Source: a virus | IMG/VR virus record: IMGVR_UViG_3300025133_000620 | Coordinates: 1-22,964 of that record | DNA: 22,964 nucleotides | Reading direction: 5' to 3' (one strand) | Part shown: positions 4,621 through 21,748 of the stretch, piece by piece | Position numbering within the stretch: the stretch's first letter is position 1 | How the letters are laid out: every line of letters starts with the position of its first letter | Notes under the pieces: generated by a model | Databases searched by the model: none | What the model was told of the DNA's origin: nothing | The model's input: only the letters and a program-made list of their open reading frames with translations | Program-made: the position numbers and the translations under genes

Positions 4621-4995
4621 CTACATATCCTCCTTAATTTTAAGTAATTCAACCGATACCTCATTATTATAAGACATCGTTCCTATTATACGAAACCCTG
4701 CACTTAATACTATTTTGATTTCATCGTTATCTTGGTTATCGATACGTGATCTAACTATCGGATAGTCTAGCATCACAGCATCTATTATTTCCTTAAAAGC
4801 TCTCACAGCTTTAGTACCTCTAAACTCAGGTCGTAGAGTAGACTTGGTAATGTCAAACACACCACCAGATCGCTTTATACCAACGACACATCCTGCATAC
4901 TTATTGTTTATATAACCACAATAAGAGACACCAGTAAAGTCTTGGGGAACTAATTCCACGCTATATGTGTCATTCTTAGCTTCCAAACAACCCAC
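4621..4995 (-). CDS. GNAT-type acetyltransferase
   Basis: A longer in-frame reading from ATG 5088 would overlap the previous gene by more than 100 nt. I prefer GTG 4995, which sits 7 nt behind AAGGAGGG, giving 124 residues. The pattern is that of small GNAT proteins: strands YSVELVPQDF and YAGCVVGIKRSGGV, then the acetyl-CoA loop STLRPEFRGTKAVRAFKEI (R/Q-x-x-G-x-x/A form, RGTKAV). The conserved end is NDEIKIVLSAGFRIIGTMSY, with the AGF..IG turn found in this fold. It would move an acetyl group from acetyl-CoA to an amine; the substrate is unknown. Its place among virion genes is typical of some podophages. It could act on a virion protein or on a host target. Its last codons (KEDM) encode the next ribosome site. 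Confidence 0.75.
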   Translation of the reverse strand: MGCLEAKNDTYSVELVPQDFTGVSYCGYINNKYAGCVVGIKRSGGVFDITKSTLRPEFRGTKAVRAFKEIIDAVMLDYPIVRSRIDNQDNDEIKIVLSAGFRIIGTMSYNNEVSVELLKIKEDM

Positions 4996-5326
4996 TAAAG
5001 AACCCTCCTTTGTCTTCTTCAGCATCATGCCTAGCAGCAGCAGCTTCGTTCTTTTGTAGCTGTAATCGATCTGCAGCGATTTTTTCATTAGATGCTATCT
5101 GAGCCCTGTTGGTTCGGTTTGCGAGCTCTGACGCTCTCCTGCTTTCCTCTAATCGTGCTTGTGTATCAGAAAGTGCAGTTTCTCTCAGTCTGTCCTGTTC
5201 TAGTGTTCCCTCAGTTATAGCTTGTACGGTTCCAGGACCTAGAGCCGTCTTTGATCTAAACTGTCCTGATTTAAGCTGTCTAGCAAGTGCCTTTGCTATA
5301 AACGGTCTGTTTCTTTTTAAAGCCAT
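4976..5326 (-). CDS. Small helical protein of the tail/ejection cluster
   Basis: This is a 116-residue protein that I do not recognise. It starts at ATG 5326 after AGGAGA, which overlaps the end of the tail gene. Residues 1-30 are basic (LKRNRPFIAKALARQLKSG, then RSKTALGPG). Residues 38-100 form a long Ala/Gln/Arg/Glu-rich helix with coiled-coil character. The C-terminus is DKGGFFSGLFGS. There is no membrane segment. The last 20 nt overlap the acetyltransferase gene, whose ribosome site is encoded by the AAAGGAGGG of the DKGG region. In podophages small helical proteins in this place may be tail or internal virion proteins, but nothing specific can be assigned. Confidence 0.68.
   Translation of the reverse strand: MALKRNRPFIAKALARQLKSGQFRSKTALGPGTVQAITEGTLEQDRLRETALSDTQARLEESRRASELANRTNRAQIASNEKIAADRLQLQKNEAAAARHDAEEDKGGFFSGLFGS
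5003..5010 (-). promoter_or_regulatory. Ribosome binding site deciding a GTG start
   Basis: AAGGAGGG on the minus strand, followed by seven bases and GTG 4995. No comparable site precedes the more upstream in-frame ATG codons of the acetyltransferase frame, so it decides that start. Confidence 0.7.
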
Positions 5327-15976: not shown

Positions 15977-17950
15977 CTATTGTACACCTCCTATAGGTTG
16001 AGCTTGTTGTGTTGGCTGTGGAACACCTGTCTGATTAGCAGGTGATTCCGTTGGAGAGGTTAGCCCTGGTTGAGCACCACCGCCTCCACCACCTTTTGGT
16101 TCGTTTAACGGTGATTGTTCATCAAACAACTCACCTGTCATCTCTTCTTCCTCTTTACCCATTAACTTAAATATCTTCTTAAGTATACCATTAGCTACAG
16201 CAGGAGCCTGTGCATTCTGAGAGTTCATCACATAACCAAGAGCAGTATTAAGTCTATCAATCTTAGCACCTGATGTTGAATCTGTTTCAATCGATTCAGA
16301 TATAGGTTTGTAATGATAATCAAGATCAGAATTAAAAGCTAATGCAACCTCTTCACCTAACATCTCTACTGCTGTCTCAGCTAACATAAACTGTGATGAC
16401 ATCATCATTATCATCCAGTACAAGTTACCCATCATAGTGTGTTCAAACACTAGGTTCTTATACTGACTACGCACGTTAACCTGTTTCTCAGCCCTTGCAA
16501 CAGTAGTTGCAGCAGCAGAAGACAGTACTGGAACACCTGAGTCTCTTGCATTGGTTTCGTTAAACTTTGCTGTAAGCATATCTAACTGATTTAATGCAGG
16601 TACTGTGTTACTTGCAAAATCAACGACCTCTGTTCCAGCAGGCCATATTTCCATTGGTGCAATACGTAGAGGCATTTCGTCTTCATCAAAACCTTCTGGT
16701 TGTTTGATGATCTTCAACATACCCATCAATGTATTATCATTGTTTGCGTTGAATGTATCGTTTATAGCTTTCTGCAAACCTCTACTACCAACATCATCAC
16801 CAAAACCTCTATCATTTGTAGGATGTATGTAGCACAAACCTCTTGCTAAAGGTATGTAACGGTTACCGTAGTTATCCTTATAAGGATTAAGTTCGTGTCT
16901 GATTATAACCTTCTCAGTACTCTCACCGTTTAATACCGCTATGTTTTGTACTAAGTGAACAAGTTCAGCGTTTTCAAGAGGTTCACCTCTCGTATCGTAC
17001 CCATACTTAATAGCAGAAGGATCACCGTTCTCATCTCTTTCAGTAACAACAGCATAGTCCATACCCCATCGTTCTATAACCATAAGGTTCTTAACTGGTG
17101 TCTTATCGTTATCACGTTTCGTAGCACCCCTTAGATCGAAGTCAAGCGTCTTCTGCTTGGTTTCAGTTTCACCTGATAGTCTAACCCCCTCAAGTTTATC
17201 AAGGTTGATGTACCCAAGTGTATCAGCGTCACGTTTCAAGTCAGACAGTGTTGTGTCATACCTTAGTATTATCCAGTTCTTATTTCTTATGTTATATGAA
17301 TACTCTCCTGAGTATCGTATGTTACGTGGGTCAATAACATCAAAAGCAAACTGATCACGTATAACTTCAATAAACTCTTCTTCTGTTGTCTCTTCTATAG
17401 TTGCAGGTTGTTGGTTAGGGTCTGTTCTTTCATTACCATTAATATCAACTTCTTCTAGTACAGTTACATGAGTAATAGGTACTTTACGTGGTTCCAAATC
17501 CTGTTCCCACCAACATCTAATATATGACCTACCACCTATATTCTTAGTTTGTGACAATCTTATATACTTCTGAAAATAATCAAGGTTTGATCTACTAAGA
17601 GTTTTGTCTATCAAGTCCTTAGCAGCATTAGCCGCAGCTATATCTGCTTCGTCTTTCGACATAACATTTACACTGACAAATTCCTTCCTAGCAAAGTAAG
17701 CATGAGCATCGTCTGCTGTTTGACCCTGTATTGCATTAAGAAACTCAGGTATAGGTATATTACCTTGCCAATCGTAATCACGTTCAGTTCTTACATTATC
17801 AAACATATCCAACGCAGCCTCAAAGTCAGCATCATCGTCTATGTTATTTTGCTCACCAGTTACATATTCAGCATAAATCTGATCAACTATGATATCTTCG
17901 ACAAGCTGTTTACTATCACCTTTTGCCACTCTAATTACCTTCTCTGCCAT
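15977..17950 (-). CDS. Portal protein
   Basis: This 657-residue protein directly follows the terminase, and size and order match podophage portals. It opens with an acidic helical region and DYDWQGNIPIPEF (about 58-70). It has mixed alpha/beta stretches including FAFDVIDPRNIRYSG (about 205-220), GDDVGSRGLQKAINDTFNANNDN (about 380-400, the region of the long crossing helix), and a helical C-terminal half rich in Met (YWMIMMMSSQFM). The C-terminal 45 residues are low complexity, rich in Gly, Pro and Gln. It would form the dodecameric ring at the capsid vertex through which DNA enters and leaves. An AGAGGG ribosome site precedes ATG 17950. Its stop overlaps a possible unusual start of the next gene. 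The family call rests on context and overall pattern rather than on a single signature motif. Confidence 0.85.
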   Translation of the reverse strand: MAEKVIRVAKGDSKQLVEDIIVDQIYAEYVTGEQNNIDDDADFEAALDMFDNVRTERDYDWQGNIPIPEFLNAIQGQTADDAHAYFARKEFVSVNVMSKDEADIAAANAAKDLIDKTLSRSNLDYFQKYIRLSQTKNIGGRSYIRCWWEQDLEPRKVPITHVTVLEEVDINGNERTDPNQQPATIEETTEEEFIEVIRDQFAFDVIDPRNIRYSGEYSYNIRNKNWIILRYDTTLSDLKRDADTLGYINLDKLEGVRLSGETETKQKTLDFDLRGATKRDNDKTPVKNLMVIERWGMDYAVVTERDENGDPSAIKYGYDTRGEPLENAELVHLVQNIAVLNGESTEKVIIRHELNPYKDNYGNRYIPLARGLCYIHPTNDRGFGDDVGSRGLQKAINDTFNANNDNTLMGMLKIIKQPEGFDEDEMPLRIAPMEIWPAGTEVVDFASNTVPALNQLDMLTAKFNETNARDSGVPVLSSAAATTVARAEKQVNVRSQYKNLVFEHTMMGNLYWMIMMMSSQFMLAETAVEMLGEEVALAFNSDLDYHYKPISESIETDSTSGAKIDRLNTALGYVMNSQNAQAPAVANGILKKIFKLMGKEEEEMTGELFDEQSPLNEPKGGGGGGAQPGLTSPTESPANQTGVPQPTQQAQPIGGVQ

Positions 17951-17958
17951 ATCACCCT

Positions 17959-18663
17959 CTACATTTTAAATAAATTAGTTGTTCGTTTATCAGCGAATCT
18001 ACGTTTACGCACTTCAATTTTGTCGTCTTCCATGTCTATTCTAGGCTTAAAACGTTTTTCTTTCATTATACCTTCTAGAGCAGTGCAATGATGACTCCAT
18101 TTCTGAGAAGGTTTACTGTCTTCCATTCTCCATTTATAAAGAGAATTAAGAGTAATTCTACATGTTTCAGATACCCATAATGTGGGTAGTATTTCTTTAA
18201 ATCCTGTTCTCTTATTTACTACATTATTATTAAAAGGCTTCTTAGCTTCAACTGAGTTTATAAGCCTACGCTTAATATTATCTCTACCTGCCAGGAATCC
18301 TTTACGTGTTATATGGTACTTAGTATCGTAAGGTTCCCATTTACCTCCAGTACCAAACCCCTCTTTCTTGAACTTAGAAAAATAACGATTAAGGTCTTGT
18401 ATTACAGTTGTGCTAGTATTTGGTTGATTGACACCTGCAAGAGGGTCTATCCTATTTAACTTAAACTTATAATCACCGGAAGCTTCAATAATCTTTTCTG
18501 CTATAATCTCAGTAGTATTCTTCTTAGGGTCAACATTCAACTCATGCCATATAAAACATTCATCAGAAGGAGACAATGATAGAAATAATATAGGATTAAC
18601 ATTAGATGGATGATAGTCCCATGTTCTAAAGTGAGCCCATCTCATTGGCATTACATCTAACAT
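17959..18663 (-). CDS. Large terminase, nuclease part (split gene)
   Basis: This 234-residue protein continues the terminase in the -1 frame relative to the ATPase gene. The two overlap by 7 nt (ATGTTAG). Residues 12-40 (FRTWDYHPSN ... ILFLSLSP ... FIWHELN) match the first strands of the RNase H-like terminase nuclease, with D16 as the likely first metal ligand. D73 in LNRIDPLAG is a likely second ligand. The usual C-terminal H..DAL motif appears as HHCTALEG (191-198), so the third acid is either replaced or supplied by E197. The two parts sum to 594 residues, a normal full TerL length. A GAGAGG about 11 nt before the ATG could serve as ribosome site. The start at the overlap suggests coupled reinitiation. 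The stop lies 8 nt before the portal ATG. Confidence 0.8.
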   Translation of the reverse strand: MLDVMPMRWAHFRTWDYHPSNVNPILFLSLSPSDECFIWHELNVDPKKNTTEIIAEKIIEASGDYKFKLNRIDPLAGVNQPNTSTTVIQDLNRYFSKFKKEGFGTGGKWEPYDTKYHITRKGFLAGRDNIKRRLINSVEAKKPFNNNVVNKRTGFKEILPTLWVSETCRITLNSLYKWRMEDSKPSQKWSHHCTALEGIMKEKRFKPRIDMEDDKIEVRKRRFADKRTTNLFKM

Positions 18664-19739
18664 GCAACACCTATCCTCTCGTTAAACACCTTCTGTAAAT
18701 CGATACTATGAGTGTCCCATCTAAACTGTGGGAATATCTTTGAGGACAACTGTTGGAATACACAAAACCTTCTCATCATCTGTACTTCTGGGTCTGGATA
18801 CTCCATCAAGTATTCTATAACATCTTCTGTTGTTAGAATAGGATTATCATCAGACGCTGATTCAACTACAGCTATAGAATAAGGACTATTAGTATGTTCA
18901 ATACGAGCCTTATCCTCTCCTTTAATTTTCTTATAATATTCATCTATCATAAACTTTGATCGGTAATAAACTTGAGCCCTATCAAAGATTTGATCATATA
19001 ATACAGTACTCTTTGTGTCTTCCGTAACAGTGTAGGTGATGATAAAGTCACCCTTTTCGATCATAAGCCTTGGTCTTTGTTCGTCATAAAACCCCTCAGA
19101 ACCTAACTCATCAGCCCATATACTAACTCTCTGATGTCCTCTAGTGGACTCAACTGGCATCTTATAAGAAACAAACTCGAATACAATGTCTTCACCACCA
19201 TACGGGTCCCACAATTCAACAGTCTTCTTCCTAGTAGATGGTGTCTTCTTTATAAGAAACGGAGGACACCATTTCATAAGTTCTAGATACTGGATACTCT
19301 TTACTTCTTTAGTAGCACCTTTCTCTCCTGCCTTGTCGTGTTCACTCTCTGGTAGTATGTCACCTGCAAATCTTATGATCTTATTACCACGTTTATGTAG
19401 CTTTACTTCTTTACGATTAGGTTTAGCACACGTAGGACATAATCCATCCTTATACCGTAGTTCAAAACCATCAAGCCATTGAGCAGGACTAAAGGTATGA
19501 CCGTTAGCACATTCAAAGTAATTAATATTACGCTCTGGTATAGGATGACTACCCATAATCCTGTGCATATAACCCATTATAGTCATAGCACCTTTACCTC
19601 GTTGATTACCGAAGAACAATGCTATTGTTTTCTGTTTTATATTCAAGAACTGCTTAGATTCCCATGTATGAACGTATTGTGATAACGATGCGAAATCGTT
19701 AGCTTGTTTCACTGCTTCTTGTGTGAGGATGTTTGTCAT
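18657..19739 (-). CDS. Large terminase, ATPase part (split gene)
   Basis: This is a 360-residue protein with the layout of the packaging motor domain of a large terminase. A P-loop-like GNQRGKGA lies at residues 44-51, preceded by TIALFF. A Walker B strand with acidic pair RVSIWADEL lies at 204-212. A probable coupling motif is ITYTVTED at 234-241. The usual P-loop Ser/Thr after GK is Gly here. Between the P-loop and Walker B sits a zinc-ligand set: C77, H81, C101, C104 (C-x3-H ... C-x2-C). The frame stops with TAG at 18657, exactly where a normal terminase continues into its nuclease domain; that domain is encoded by the next, overlapping frame. The AAGGAGAGAG before the ATG is a clear ribosome site. 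The assignment as TerL ATPase is strong; whether it works as a separate chain is discussed in the findings. Confidence 0.85.
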   Translation of the reverse strand: MTNILTQEAVKQANDFASLSQYVHTWESKQFLNIKQKTIALFFGNQRGKGAMTIMGYMHRIMGSHPIPERNINYFECANGHTFSPAQWLDGFELRYKDGLCPTCAKPNRKEVKLHKRGNKIIRFAGDILPESEHDKAGEKGATKEVKSIQYLELMKWCPPFLIKKTPSTRKKTVELWDPYGGEDIVFEFVSYKMPVESTRGHQRVSIWADELGSEGFYDEQRPRLMIEKGDFIITYTVTEDTKSTVLYDQIFDRAQVYYRSKFMIDEYYKKIKGEDKARIEHTNSPYSIAVVESASDDNPILTTEDVIEYLMEYPDPEVQMMRRFCVFQQLSSKIFPQFRWDTHSIDLQKVFNERIGVAC

Positions 19740-19974: not shown

Positions 19975-20829
19975 TTAACCGCTCTGTTTATCCATAAATA
20001 AATATTCTTCTTTCATTAACGTTTTAATACCAATGCGTTTCATCACTTCTTTATGTGCATCTTTAAACTCATCGACCATTCTGTCAAGAAAGTCATACAA
20101 GCTAGTTACAGATGGCATTTGTTTACCATTGCTATTCTGAATCAGCTTATCACAATCATCCACATATTTCATAACAAAAGCCCTTGCTGTCATAGGGTGT
20201 ATACCATACTGCTCAAGATACTCCATTGTACCCATATTCATGCAACCATTTTGTATTAAATCCTTGTGGCAGTTACGGAAAGCCATTCTTATATGGTGAG
20301 CTATTTCTTCTTTCTCAACATCAACTTCATCCCAATCAGCAGGGATATTGTTTGTTTCCATAATCTCTTTGTATGCTTCTTGATACATACCTATCTCTTT
20401 TAATGCTCCTTCAATTGTATTTCTTGATGCAGTTAATTGGCTTTCAGCCTCTTCTATTTTAACAAGAGACATTGCATCACCTTTGTCCTTCCATTTTGCA
20501 ATATTAACAAGAGCCTTTTTATGTGTGAAGTATGCACTATTCAATGCGTTTCTTTTCGTGTCGATCTGTGCTAGGCATTGTCTTAACCTACGATAAGGAG
20601 AATCACACATCATAGTTAATGACATTAACTGGCTTGTTGTTTGAGTGTTCTTTCTCCCTGTTGTCTGTATTGCCCTGTCTATCATAGGCATATCAGACAA
20701 AATCGTAGCCAGTTTTTGCGTATTAATTGTAGGCATACCTCCTACCCATACTTCAATATCTTTATATCTATTTACTAAACTGTTATTATGTTTGTCCGTT
20801 TGACCCAGCACCGCCACCTCCTTCTTCAT
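19975..20829 (-). CDS. Hypothetical helical protein, candidate small terminase by position
   Basis: This is a 284-residue mostly helical and charged protein that I do not recognise. Long stretches (about 85-175) have a coiled-coil character, with many Lys/Glu and few Pro or Gly. Its place just before the large terminase (with one tiny gene between) is where small terminase subunits often sit, but I cannot point to a helix-turn-helix. The ATG at 20829 has only a weak upstream ribosome site. A strong AGGAGG at 20822-20817 lies inside the first codons and would better serve an in-frame GTG at 20811, which would trim six residues and reduce the overlap with the repeat protein to 26 nt. The reading frame is firm; the start and the function are open. 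Confidence 0.65.
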   Translation of the reverse strand: MKKEVAVLGQTDKHNNSLVNRYKDIEVWVGGMPTINTQKLATILSDMPMIDRAIQTTGRKNTQTTSQLMSLTMMCDSPYRRLRQCLAQIDTKRNALNSAYFTHKKALVNIAKWKDKGDAMSLVKIEEAESQLTASRNTIEGALKEIGMYQEAYKEIMETNNIPADWDEVDVEKEEIAHHIRMAFRNCHKDLIQNGCMNMGTMEYLEQYGIHPMTARAFVMKYVDDCDKLIQNSNGKQMPSVTSLYDFLDRMVDEFKDAHKEVMKRIGIKTLMKEEYLFMDKQSG

Positions 20830-21748
20830 GTGTTATCATATCACCAAAATCTGTTGCATTACCTATTGAGGATATAGTAATATATTCAATAGTGTTATCT
20901 TCTGTACCAGGACCTCCAGGACTCCAATCAGCATTGCCAACAACACCTCTATCACCATGCCCATTTGACAGACCGCCACCAAGTGAACAACTATTACCTA
21001 AATCACCAAAATCAGTTGCATTAGAAGGAGAGTTTATCGTGATGTATTCGATTACATTTGTGTATCCAGAACCTCTATTTCCTCCAAAAAAGCAACCTCT
21101 CTCTCTTGTATCATTACTTGCTCCATGTCTAAGTCCTCTTACCGCAGCAACAGTAATATCACCAAAGTCTGTTGCAGTACCTGTAGAGGAGATAGTAATA
21201 TAATCTATTACATTGCTATAACTGCCAGTATATCCCCCTGCAACAACACCTCTATCATTAACTCCATTAGACACACTCCCACTATCGTACCTCTCTACAC
21301 TTAAATTCCCAAAATCTGTTGCATCCCCTGTAGAGGATATAGTGACATATTCTAAGCTGTCTGTATTCAAATTACCTGCAAATACCCCTCTATCGGTAGA
21401 GCCATTCGACAGTCCTGTTTTTCCTGTTGTAATTCCACTTAAATCGCCAAAGTCAGTTGCATTTCCTGTTGATGAGACAGTAATATAATCTATTATATTG
21501 GCATTGCCGCCACTTAAAGTACCTCCTGCTGACAACATACGATCAGTACCCAAAAGACCATTACAACATACACCATTCTGGTCAGGACTATATGTTAAAT
21601 CTCCAAAATCAGTTGCATTTCCTGTTGAGGATATTGTGATATATTGAATTACATTTGCATAAGGAACACTATATCCTGAAAATATACCTCTATCGCCTGA
21701 AAGTGCAAGAGTAATACCACCCCAAAGCCATTCTAGCCCTTTTAACAT
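20786..21748 (-). CDS. Six-bladed repeat (beta-propeller-like) appendage protein
   Basis: This 320-residue protein is made almost wholly of six tandem units of about 45-55 residues. Each begins DRG(V/I/C)F.GG, continues through N(V/I)I(D/E)YITISS, and closes with GNATDFGDL and a variable loop ending SNG. Units start near residues 17, 68, 118, 163, 214 and 263. The short-strand repeat with Gly-rich turns resembles Kelch/RCC1-type propeller blades, and six units would close one ring. I know this repeat as a frequent uncharacterised family in marine phages, likely a surface or receptor-contact protein. The N-terminus MLKGLEWLWGG precedes the first blade. The ATG follows the upstream stop directly. 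The C-terminal 44 nt overlap the next reading frame. No enzyme motif is visible, so receptor binding is an inference. Confidence 0.72.
   Translation of the reverse strand: MLKGLEWLWGGITLALSGDRGIFSGYSVPYANVIQYITISSTGNATDFGDLTYSPDQNGVCCNGLLGTDRMLSAGGTLSGGNANIIDYITVSSTGNATDFGDLSGITTGKTGLSNGSTDRGVFAGNLNTDSLEYVTISSTGDATDFGNLSVERYDSGSVSNGVNDRGVVAGGYTGSYSNVIDYITISSTGTATDFGDITVAAVRGLRHGASNDTRERGCFFGGNRGSGYTNVIEYITINSPSNATDFGDLGNSCSLGGGLSNGHGDRGVVGNADWSPGGPGTEDNTIEYITISSIGNATDFGDMITHEEGGGGAGSNGQT
20795..21700 (-). repeat. Six tandem blade repeats within the appendage gene
   Basis: Six imperfect direct repeats of roughly 135-165 bp encode the blades. The best conserved core at DNA level on the + strand is a ccaaa(a/g)tc(a/t)gttgca block, found near 20844, 21003, 21161, 21309, 21447 and 21603. 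Each is followed by a (g/t)gatatagt(a/g)a-like block that encodes YITIS. The spacers between cores differ in length and sequence. Confidence 0.85.

Follow-up and report, generated by a model that had tools for sequence, protein, structure and literature searches.

A likely large terminase divided into separate ATPase and nuclease genes at the inter-domain linker in metagenomic virus contigs

Organization of the locus

The window analyzed here is the whole 22,964-nt stretch of IMG/VR record IMGVR_UViG_3300025133_000620 (positions 1 to 22,964). On its minus strand, two ORFs, terL-N and terL-C, encode the ATPase and nuclease halves of a large terminase (TerL), and the portal protein gene is the next one downstream (Table 1). 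The TAG stop of terL-N and the ATG start of terL-C overlap by 7 nt, with the second gene in the −1 register. The nuclease frame does not open until 25 nt before the ATPase stop ends, and no X_XXY_YYZ slippery heptamer was found in the frame overlap of the window. For the 20 nt preceding the nuclease ATG, the calculated energy of pairing with the anti-Shine-Dalgarno (anti-SD) sequence was −7.9 kcal/mol, a value reached by 3.7% of random 20-mers from the window.

Most of this layout had been proposed in a first-pass annotation made from the sequence alone. Both ORFs, with their coordinates, lengths (360 and 234 aa) and ATGTTAG overlap, were re-found, as were the short open stretch of the nuclease frame ahead of the ATPase stop and the GAGAGG site and ATG at the junction. 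The claimed absence of a slippery heptamer also held in the window, and so did the division of motifs, with those of the ATPase in the first ORF and those of the nuclease in the second.

Two further features were observed elsewhere on the minus strand. The ORFs at 4621-5088 and 4976-5326 share 113 nt (4976-5088) in different frames, with the start of the downstream ORF possibly lying later. A 320-aa protein (20786-21748) is built from YITISSTGNATDFGD-type repeats, with matching repeats in the DNA.

Table 1. Features of the divided terL locus in the window.
Feature	Position	Strand	Basis
terL-N, ATPase half of large terminase, 360 aa	18657..19739	−	ORF list, AF2 model, fold matches
Deviant Walker A, GNQRGKG	19590..19610	−	Alignment of relatives
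Putative zinc-ribbon insert (C77, H81, C101, C104)	19428..19511	−	Alignment of relatives
Walker B and catalytic Glu, VSIWADE	19107..19127	−	Alignment of relatives
SD-like sequence upstream of nuclease ATG	18664..18683	−	Anti-SD duplex −7.9 kcal/mol
GAGAGG, within SD-like sequence	18675..18680	−
AGGTG, within SD-like sequence	18668..18672	−
Junction ATGTTAG, ATPase TAG overlapped by nuclease ATG	18657..18663	−
terL-C, RNase-H-fold nuclease half, 234 aa	17959..18663	−	ORF list, AF2 model, fold matches
Nuclease Asp16 codon, invariant in 19 relatives	18616..18618	−
Nuclease Asp73 codon, invariant in 19 relatives	18445..18447	−
Nuclease Glu197 codon, invariant in 19 relatives, possible third acid (inferred)	18073..18075	−
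Portal protein gene, next downstream of terL-C	15977..17950	−	SU10_portal E 1.5e-5, under Pfam's cut-off

Domain architecture and identity of the two halves

The first ORF carries a P-loop (GNQRGKG), a Walker B motif (WADE) and motif III (TYTVT), and residues G44, N45, K49, D210 and E211 were invariant in 19 sequences. The ATPase-domain criterion for a TerL, comprising Walker A, Walker B with a catalytic Glu, and motif III, was met with a deviant Walker A. The second criterion, an RNase-H-fold nuclease with acidic residues, was also met, the third acid being assigned by inference.

Two peculiarities of the ATPase half were recorded. In the split clade of the window, the P-loop residue following Lys is G or N (GKG, GKN) and not Ser/Thr; the P-loop of one unbroken relative (L057) also lacks Ser/Thr (GKN), and the remaining relatives have KT. 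A putative zinc-ribbon insert sits between Walker A and Walker B, and its three Cys residues are present in 16 of the 19 relatives, being missing from L034, L037 and L057.

AF2 models built from the alignment of 19 relatives were confident for both halves, with pLDDT values of 82.8 for terL-N and 84.2 for terL-C. In fold searches, the matches of terL-N at E < 0.001 were TerL ATPases only (P74-26, D6E, Sf6 and T4), down to 3.5e-6. For terL-C, the D6E TerL was the sole match at this threshold (E 9.6e-6), followed by weaker matches to the TerL nucleases of P22, E217 and G20c. Structural superposition (VIA-align) placed terL-N on residues 9-232 of the D6E TerL (Z 19.3, 209 residues, 2.6 Å) and terL-C on residues 248-413 (Z 14.9, 151 residues, 2.6 Å). 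The linker of the D6E terminase comprises residues 230-241 (PMC5727402); the cut therefore falls at the inter-domain linker.

Sequence-based searches were far less informative. The halves gave no useful match in Pfam, PHROGs or NCBIfam, and profiles of both halves searched against the PDB found no TerL, so that TerL identity in the PDB came only through structure comparison. Across the family, Pfam Terminase_6N was matched by 7 of 19 members (best E 3.5e-6), and the halves of the window matched no curated family. The single-polypeptide criterion for a TerL was not met, with two ORFs in the window and six split lineages overall. The split records were also scanned for a second or whole TerL and none was found, with the caveat that these records may be fragments. 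By descent and parts the gene pair is a TerL, although not a standard one-chain TerL; its packaging function is inferred.

Split and unbroken relatives

Scans of IMG/VR supplied the relatives: a single near-identical contig, several with the split and 17 with an unbroken gene (L018, L030, L033, L034, L036, L037, L038, L039, L042, L045, L048, L050, L056, L057, L058, L062 and L064). Every record is a contig from a metagenome and lacks both a completeness estimate and a known host; scans of genome contigs gave no matches. Cultured phages contained only distant TerL relatives, and those examined (DS1, Jasmine, ctEqG8 and Shocker) carry single genes.

The near-identical contig, which comes from another assembly, shares 99.97% identity with the window; 3 of 9207 positions differ, none of them in terL, and it has no indel and the same junction. 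The nearest other relatives (L002 and L003, 75% nucleotide identity) show the same split with an ATGA overlap instead. Overall, the split was found at the same site in relatives with approximately 35–80% TerL residue identity, in five junction forms besides that of the window. The 7-nt ATGTTAG overlap of the window recurs in L001, and the others are the 4-nt ATGA overlap of L002 and L003, a 1-nt overlap (TGATG) in L052, TAA followed directly by ATG in the same frame in three records identical at the junction (L022, L023 and L024), TAA followed directly by TTG in the same frame in L053, and a 325-nt gap in L010, measured up to its TTG start. The TTG starts of L010 and L053 are assumed. Recurrence of the split in five other divergent lineages is beyond chance.

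The split site maps to the linker vHvId..YFPdGIPhdWvHaRgID in the 17 unbroken proteins. Between the conserved His and the first invariant Asp beyond it lie 66–81 nt in unbroken genes; of the six split lineages, five have 78–104 nt (92 nt across the junction of the window), the exception being L010, with 442 nt.

Some additional observations concern individual records. The gap of L010 contains an ORF of ~117 aa (L010:5095-5448) whose only similarity, to the MjaI restriction endonuclease family, is weak (E 0.022, under the cut-off); the ORF might be the remnant of a homing endonuclease. Intein-like inserts occur within the TerL ATPase domain of three unbroken relatives (L038:1-1015, L062:2602-3220 and L058:5650-6665). 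Those of L038, with a LAGLIDADG domain, and L062, with an intein splicing domain, lie at the P-loop; that of L058 lies near motif III and was identified by reading only. Contigs 3300025174_000064 (source of L023) and 3300031673_000224 (L059) are both listed at exactly 36,864 bases, a possible storage or truncation effect.

Selection, translation signals and origin of the split

Comparison of the window with L002 gave dN/dS values of 0.10 for the ATPase half, 0.15 for the nuclease half and 0.125 for the portal gene; the values are approximate because dS is high. Purifying selection acts on both terL halves, as it does on the portal. This meets the criterion of a conserved gene fission with both fragments under selection, as applied to Aeh1 NrdA-type cases. 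The split is conserved at one place, with domain folds intact in the AF2 models and catalytic residues invariant.

In split genes, anti-SD pairing upstream of the nuclease start lay between −4.7 and −9.1 kcal/mol, compared with −0.6 to −5.7 kcal/mol at the matching place in unbroken genes (one-sided Mann-Whitney test, p = 0.0015). The comparison included only 6 split and 11 unbroken genes, and the positions were imperfectly matched. Given the small sample, the stronger pairing in split genes hints at, and is compatible with, coupled reinitiation using a local SD-like site.

A clade of the window, L002/L003, L010 and L022 was recovered by the trees of both halves and by the TerL-plus-portal tree. 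A second split clade, L052 and L053, lay nearest to the unbroken L056 in the nuclease-half and TerL-plus-portal trees. A single origin was not rejected by the AU test (p = 0.065 for TerL, 0.126 for portal and 0.299 for both). Two separate fissions fit best, while a single fission remains admissible. The first clade contains four junction forms; the split has therefore persisted while the junction kept changing.

Alternative explanations

The main rival put forward by the first-pass annotation was a one-base sequencing or assembly error breaking a normal single terL. The frames in the window do differ by one register, most TerLs are one chain, and assemblies often carry short indels. Against this, the same junction is present in the near-identical contig from another assembly, which has no indel, and the break sits at one and the same place in divergent relatives that differ in overlap, start codon and spacing; moreover, three records (L022, L023 and L024) are identical at their junction. 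The annotation had also held that its split would be refuted if close relatives all had an unbroken gene, and had proposed searching them for the same split. This search showed that the nearest relatives are split as well, and that more distant ones are a mix of split and unbroken. An error can thus be virtually ruled out. Programmed ribosomal frameshifting or stop readthrough, which would produce a fused TerL besides or instead of two chains, finds some support in the −1 overlap of the window and L002 and in the in-frame TAA codons of L022 and L053, which could be read through. However, the window has no usable slippery heptamer, and the AAAAAAG of L002 is out of register and upstream of the opening of the nuclease frame. 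A conserved slippery heptamer in the overlap, the criterion for programmed −1 frameshifting, is lacking, and the frame relation is not conserved. Since this relation is −1, 0 or gapped across relatives, no single recoding mechanism fits all, and we regard such recoding as highly improbable. For L022 and L053 alone, it is conceivable that low readthrough of the TAA yields some fused protein.

Rejoining of the halves by a self-splicing intron or intein would have precedents in ICP1 and Jug phages, whose terL is intron-split and then spliced (PMC10448857, PMC12363816), and intein-like TerL inserts do occur in three unbroken relatives. In the window, however, the His-to-Asp distance of 92 nt, against 66–81 nt in unbroken genes, leaves no room for an intron, and only L010 has an intron-sized insert. 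An Rfam search with E values up to 1 allowed found neither group I nor group II introns in the window region or in L010, and no intein motif was found at the junction. Neither criterion of an intron-interrupted terL, an intron-size insert or group I RNA structure, was met in the window, and splicing has very little likelihood. The same Rfam search listed a HOTAIR_2 match in the window, which was dismissed as far below its cut-off. Finally, the split could be degenerative, with a decaying terminase and a phage that is defective or uses another motor. The P-loop of the window's clade, lacking the usual Ser/Thr after Lys, speaks for this view. Against it stand purifying selection on both halves at a level like that of the portal, retention of the catalytic residues, persistence of the split across large divergence and the absence of any other TerL from the split records, which together make decay a remote prospect.

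Proposed mechanism

The most likely explanation is a two-chain large terminase that arose through real gene fission, with the nuclease made by coupled reinitiation and the chains reassembling. An ancestral single terL gene would have been split at the linker codons between the ATPase and RNase-H nuclease domains. Ribosomes ending the ATPase chain would then restart translation at the start codon that overlaps or adjoins the ATPase stop, helped by the SD-like sequence, and produce the nuclease chain, so that both chains would come from one message. The two chains would meet, probably at the portal, and together do the work of one TerL. Coupled reinitiation, physical reassembly and packaging function are all inferred, without protein or transcript data. 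The first-pass preference for a true split with coupled reinitiation is supported to this extent: relatives confirm the split, and reinitiation is inferred. Its two-chain motor remains the best inference, with no protein-level evidence.

A caution comes from phage T4. When gp17 was cut artificially at the linker (Kanamaru 2004), ATPase and nuclease activities were kept and DNA translocation was lost (PMC3012670), and the T4 ATPase–nuclease linker is reported to be essential for translocation (PMC3012670, PMC9958956). Function of the natural split therefore cannot be assumed; either the two chains rely on tight non-covalent contact, or the ATPase ring moves the DNA by itself, with the nuclease acting as an independent cutter. 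The latter leads to a bolder and tentative reading, in which the translocating ring consists of the ATPase chain alone, and the nuclease joins as a distinct, exchangeable subunit when DNA is to be cut. The nuclease might even be present in its own stoichiometry, and the covalent hinge needed by T4 might not be needed here.

Comparison with known systems

TerL, the packaging motor of both tailed phages and herpesviruses, is regarded as a single-chain protein. That several phage lineages naturally lack the covalent link suggests that parts of the motor may not need one chain. It also makes directly testable a debated point, namely whether force is transmitted via a hinge to the nuclease domain or generated by the ATPase ring alone. 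For annotation pipelines such genes are a warning, as searches of Pfam, PHROGs and NCBIfam linked neither half to a terminase family.

With the TerLs of D6E, P74-26/G20c, Sf6 and T4 (gp17), the window shares the ATPase fold, Walker A/B, motif III, the RNase-H nuclease fold, the domain order and a position upstream of the portal gene. Each of those proteins is one chain, whereas the window has two genes divided at the linker. It also differs from them in its P-loop, which has no Ser/Thr after Lys, and in the putative zinc-ribbon insert that lies between its Walker A and Walker B motifs. The artificial split of T4 gp17 has the same inter-domain cut point; the split of the window is natural and conserved.

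Other phage genes and enzymes are known to be divided. In Aeromonas phage Aeh1 (NrdA) and Aeromonas phage 25 (DNA polymerase gp43A/B), two polypeptides give an active enzyme (PMC2988022). The likeness to the window lies in one phage enzyme encoded as two polypeptides, with reassembly inferred for the window. Those are other enzymes, however, and their splits are tied to a homing endonuclease or intercistronic sequence, whereas at most terL junctions here the two ORFs overlap or touch, and only L010 may still retain an endonuclease. The terL of ICP1 and Jug phages is, like that of the window, interrupted and spread over separate ORFs; there the introns are spliced and a single chain is restored, whereas five of the six split lineages here have no intron-long intervening sequence. 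In the open-licence literature searched, no natural intron-free TerL split at the linker was found. Split phage enzymes and intron-split terL were thus known before, and what is added here is, in all likelihood, a split terL that is apparently not rejoined by splicing.
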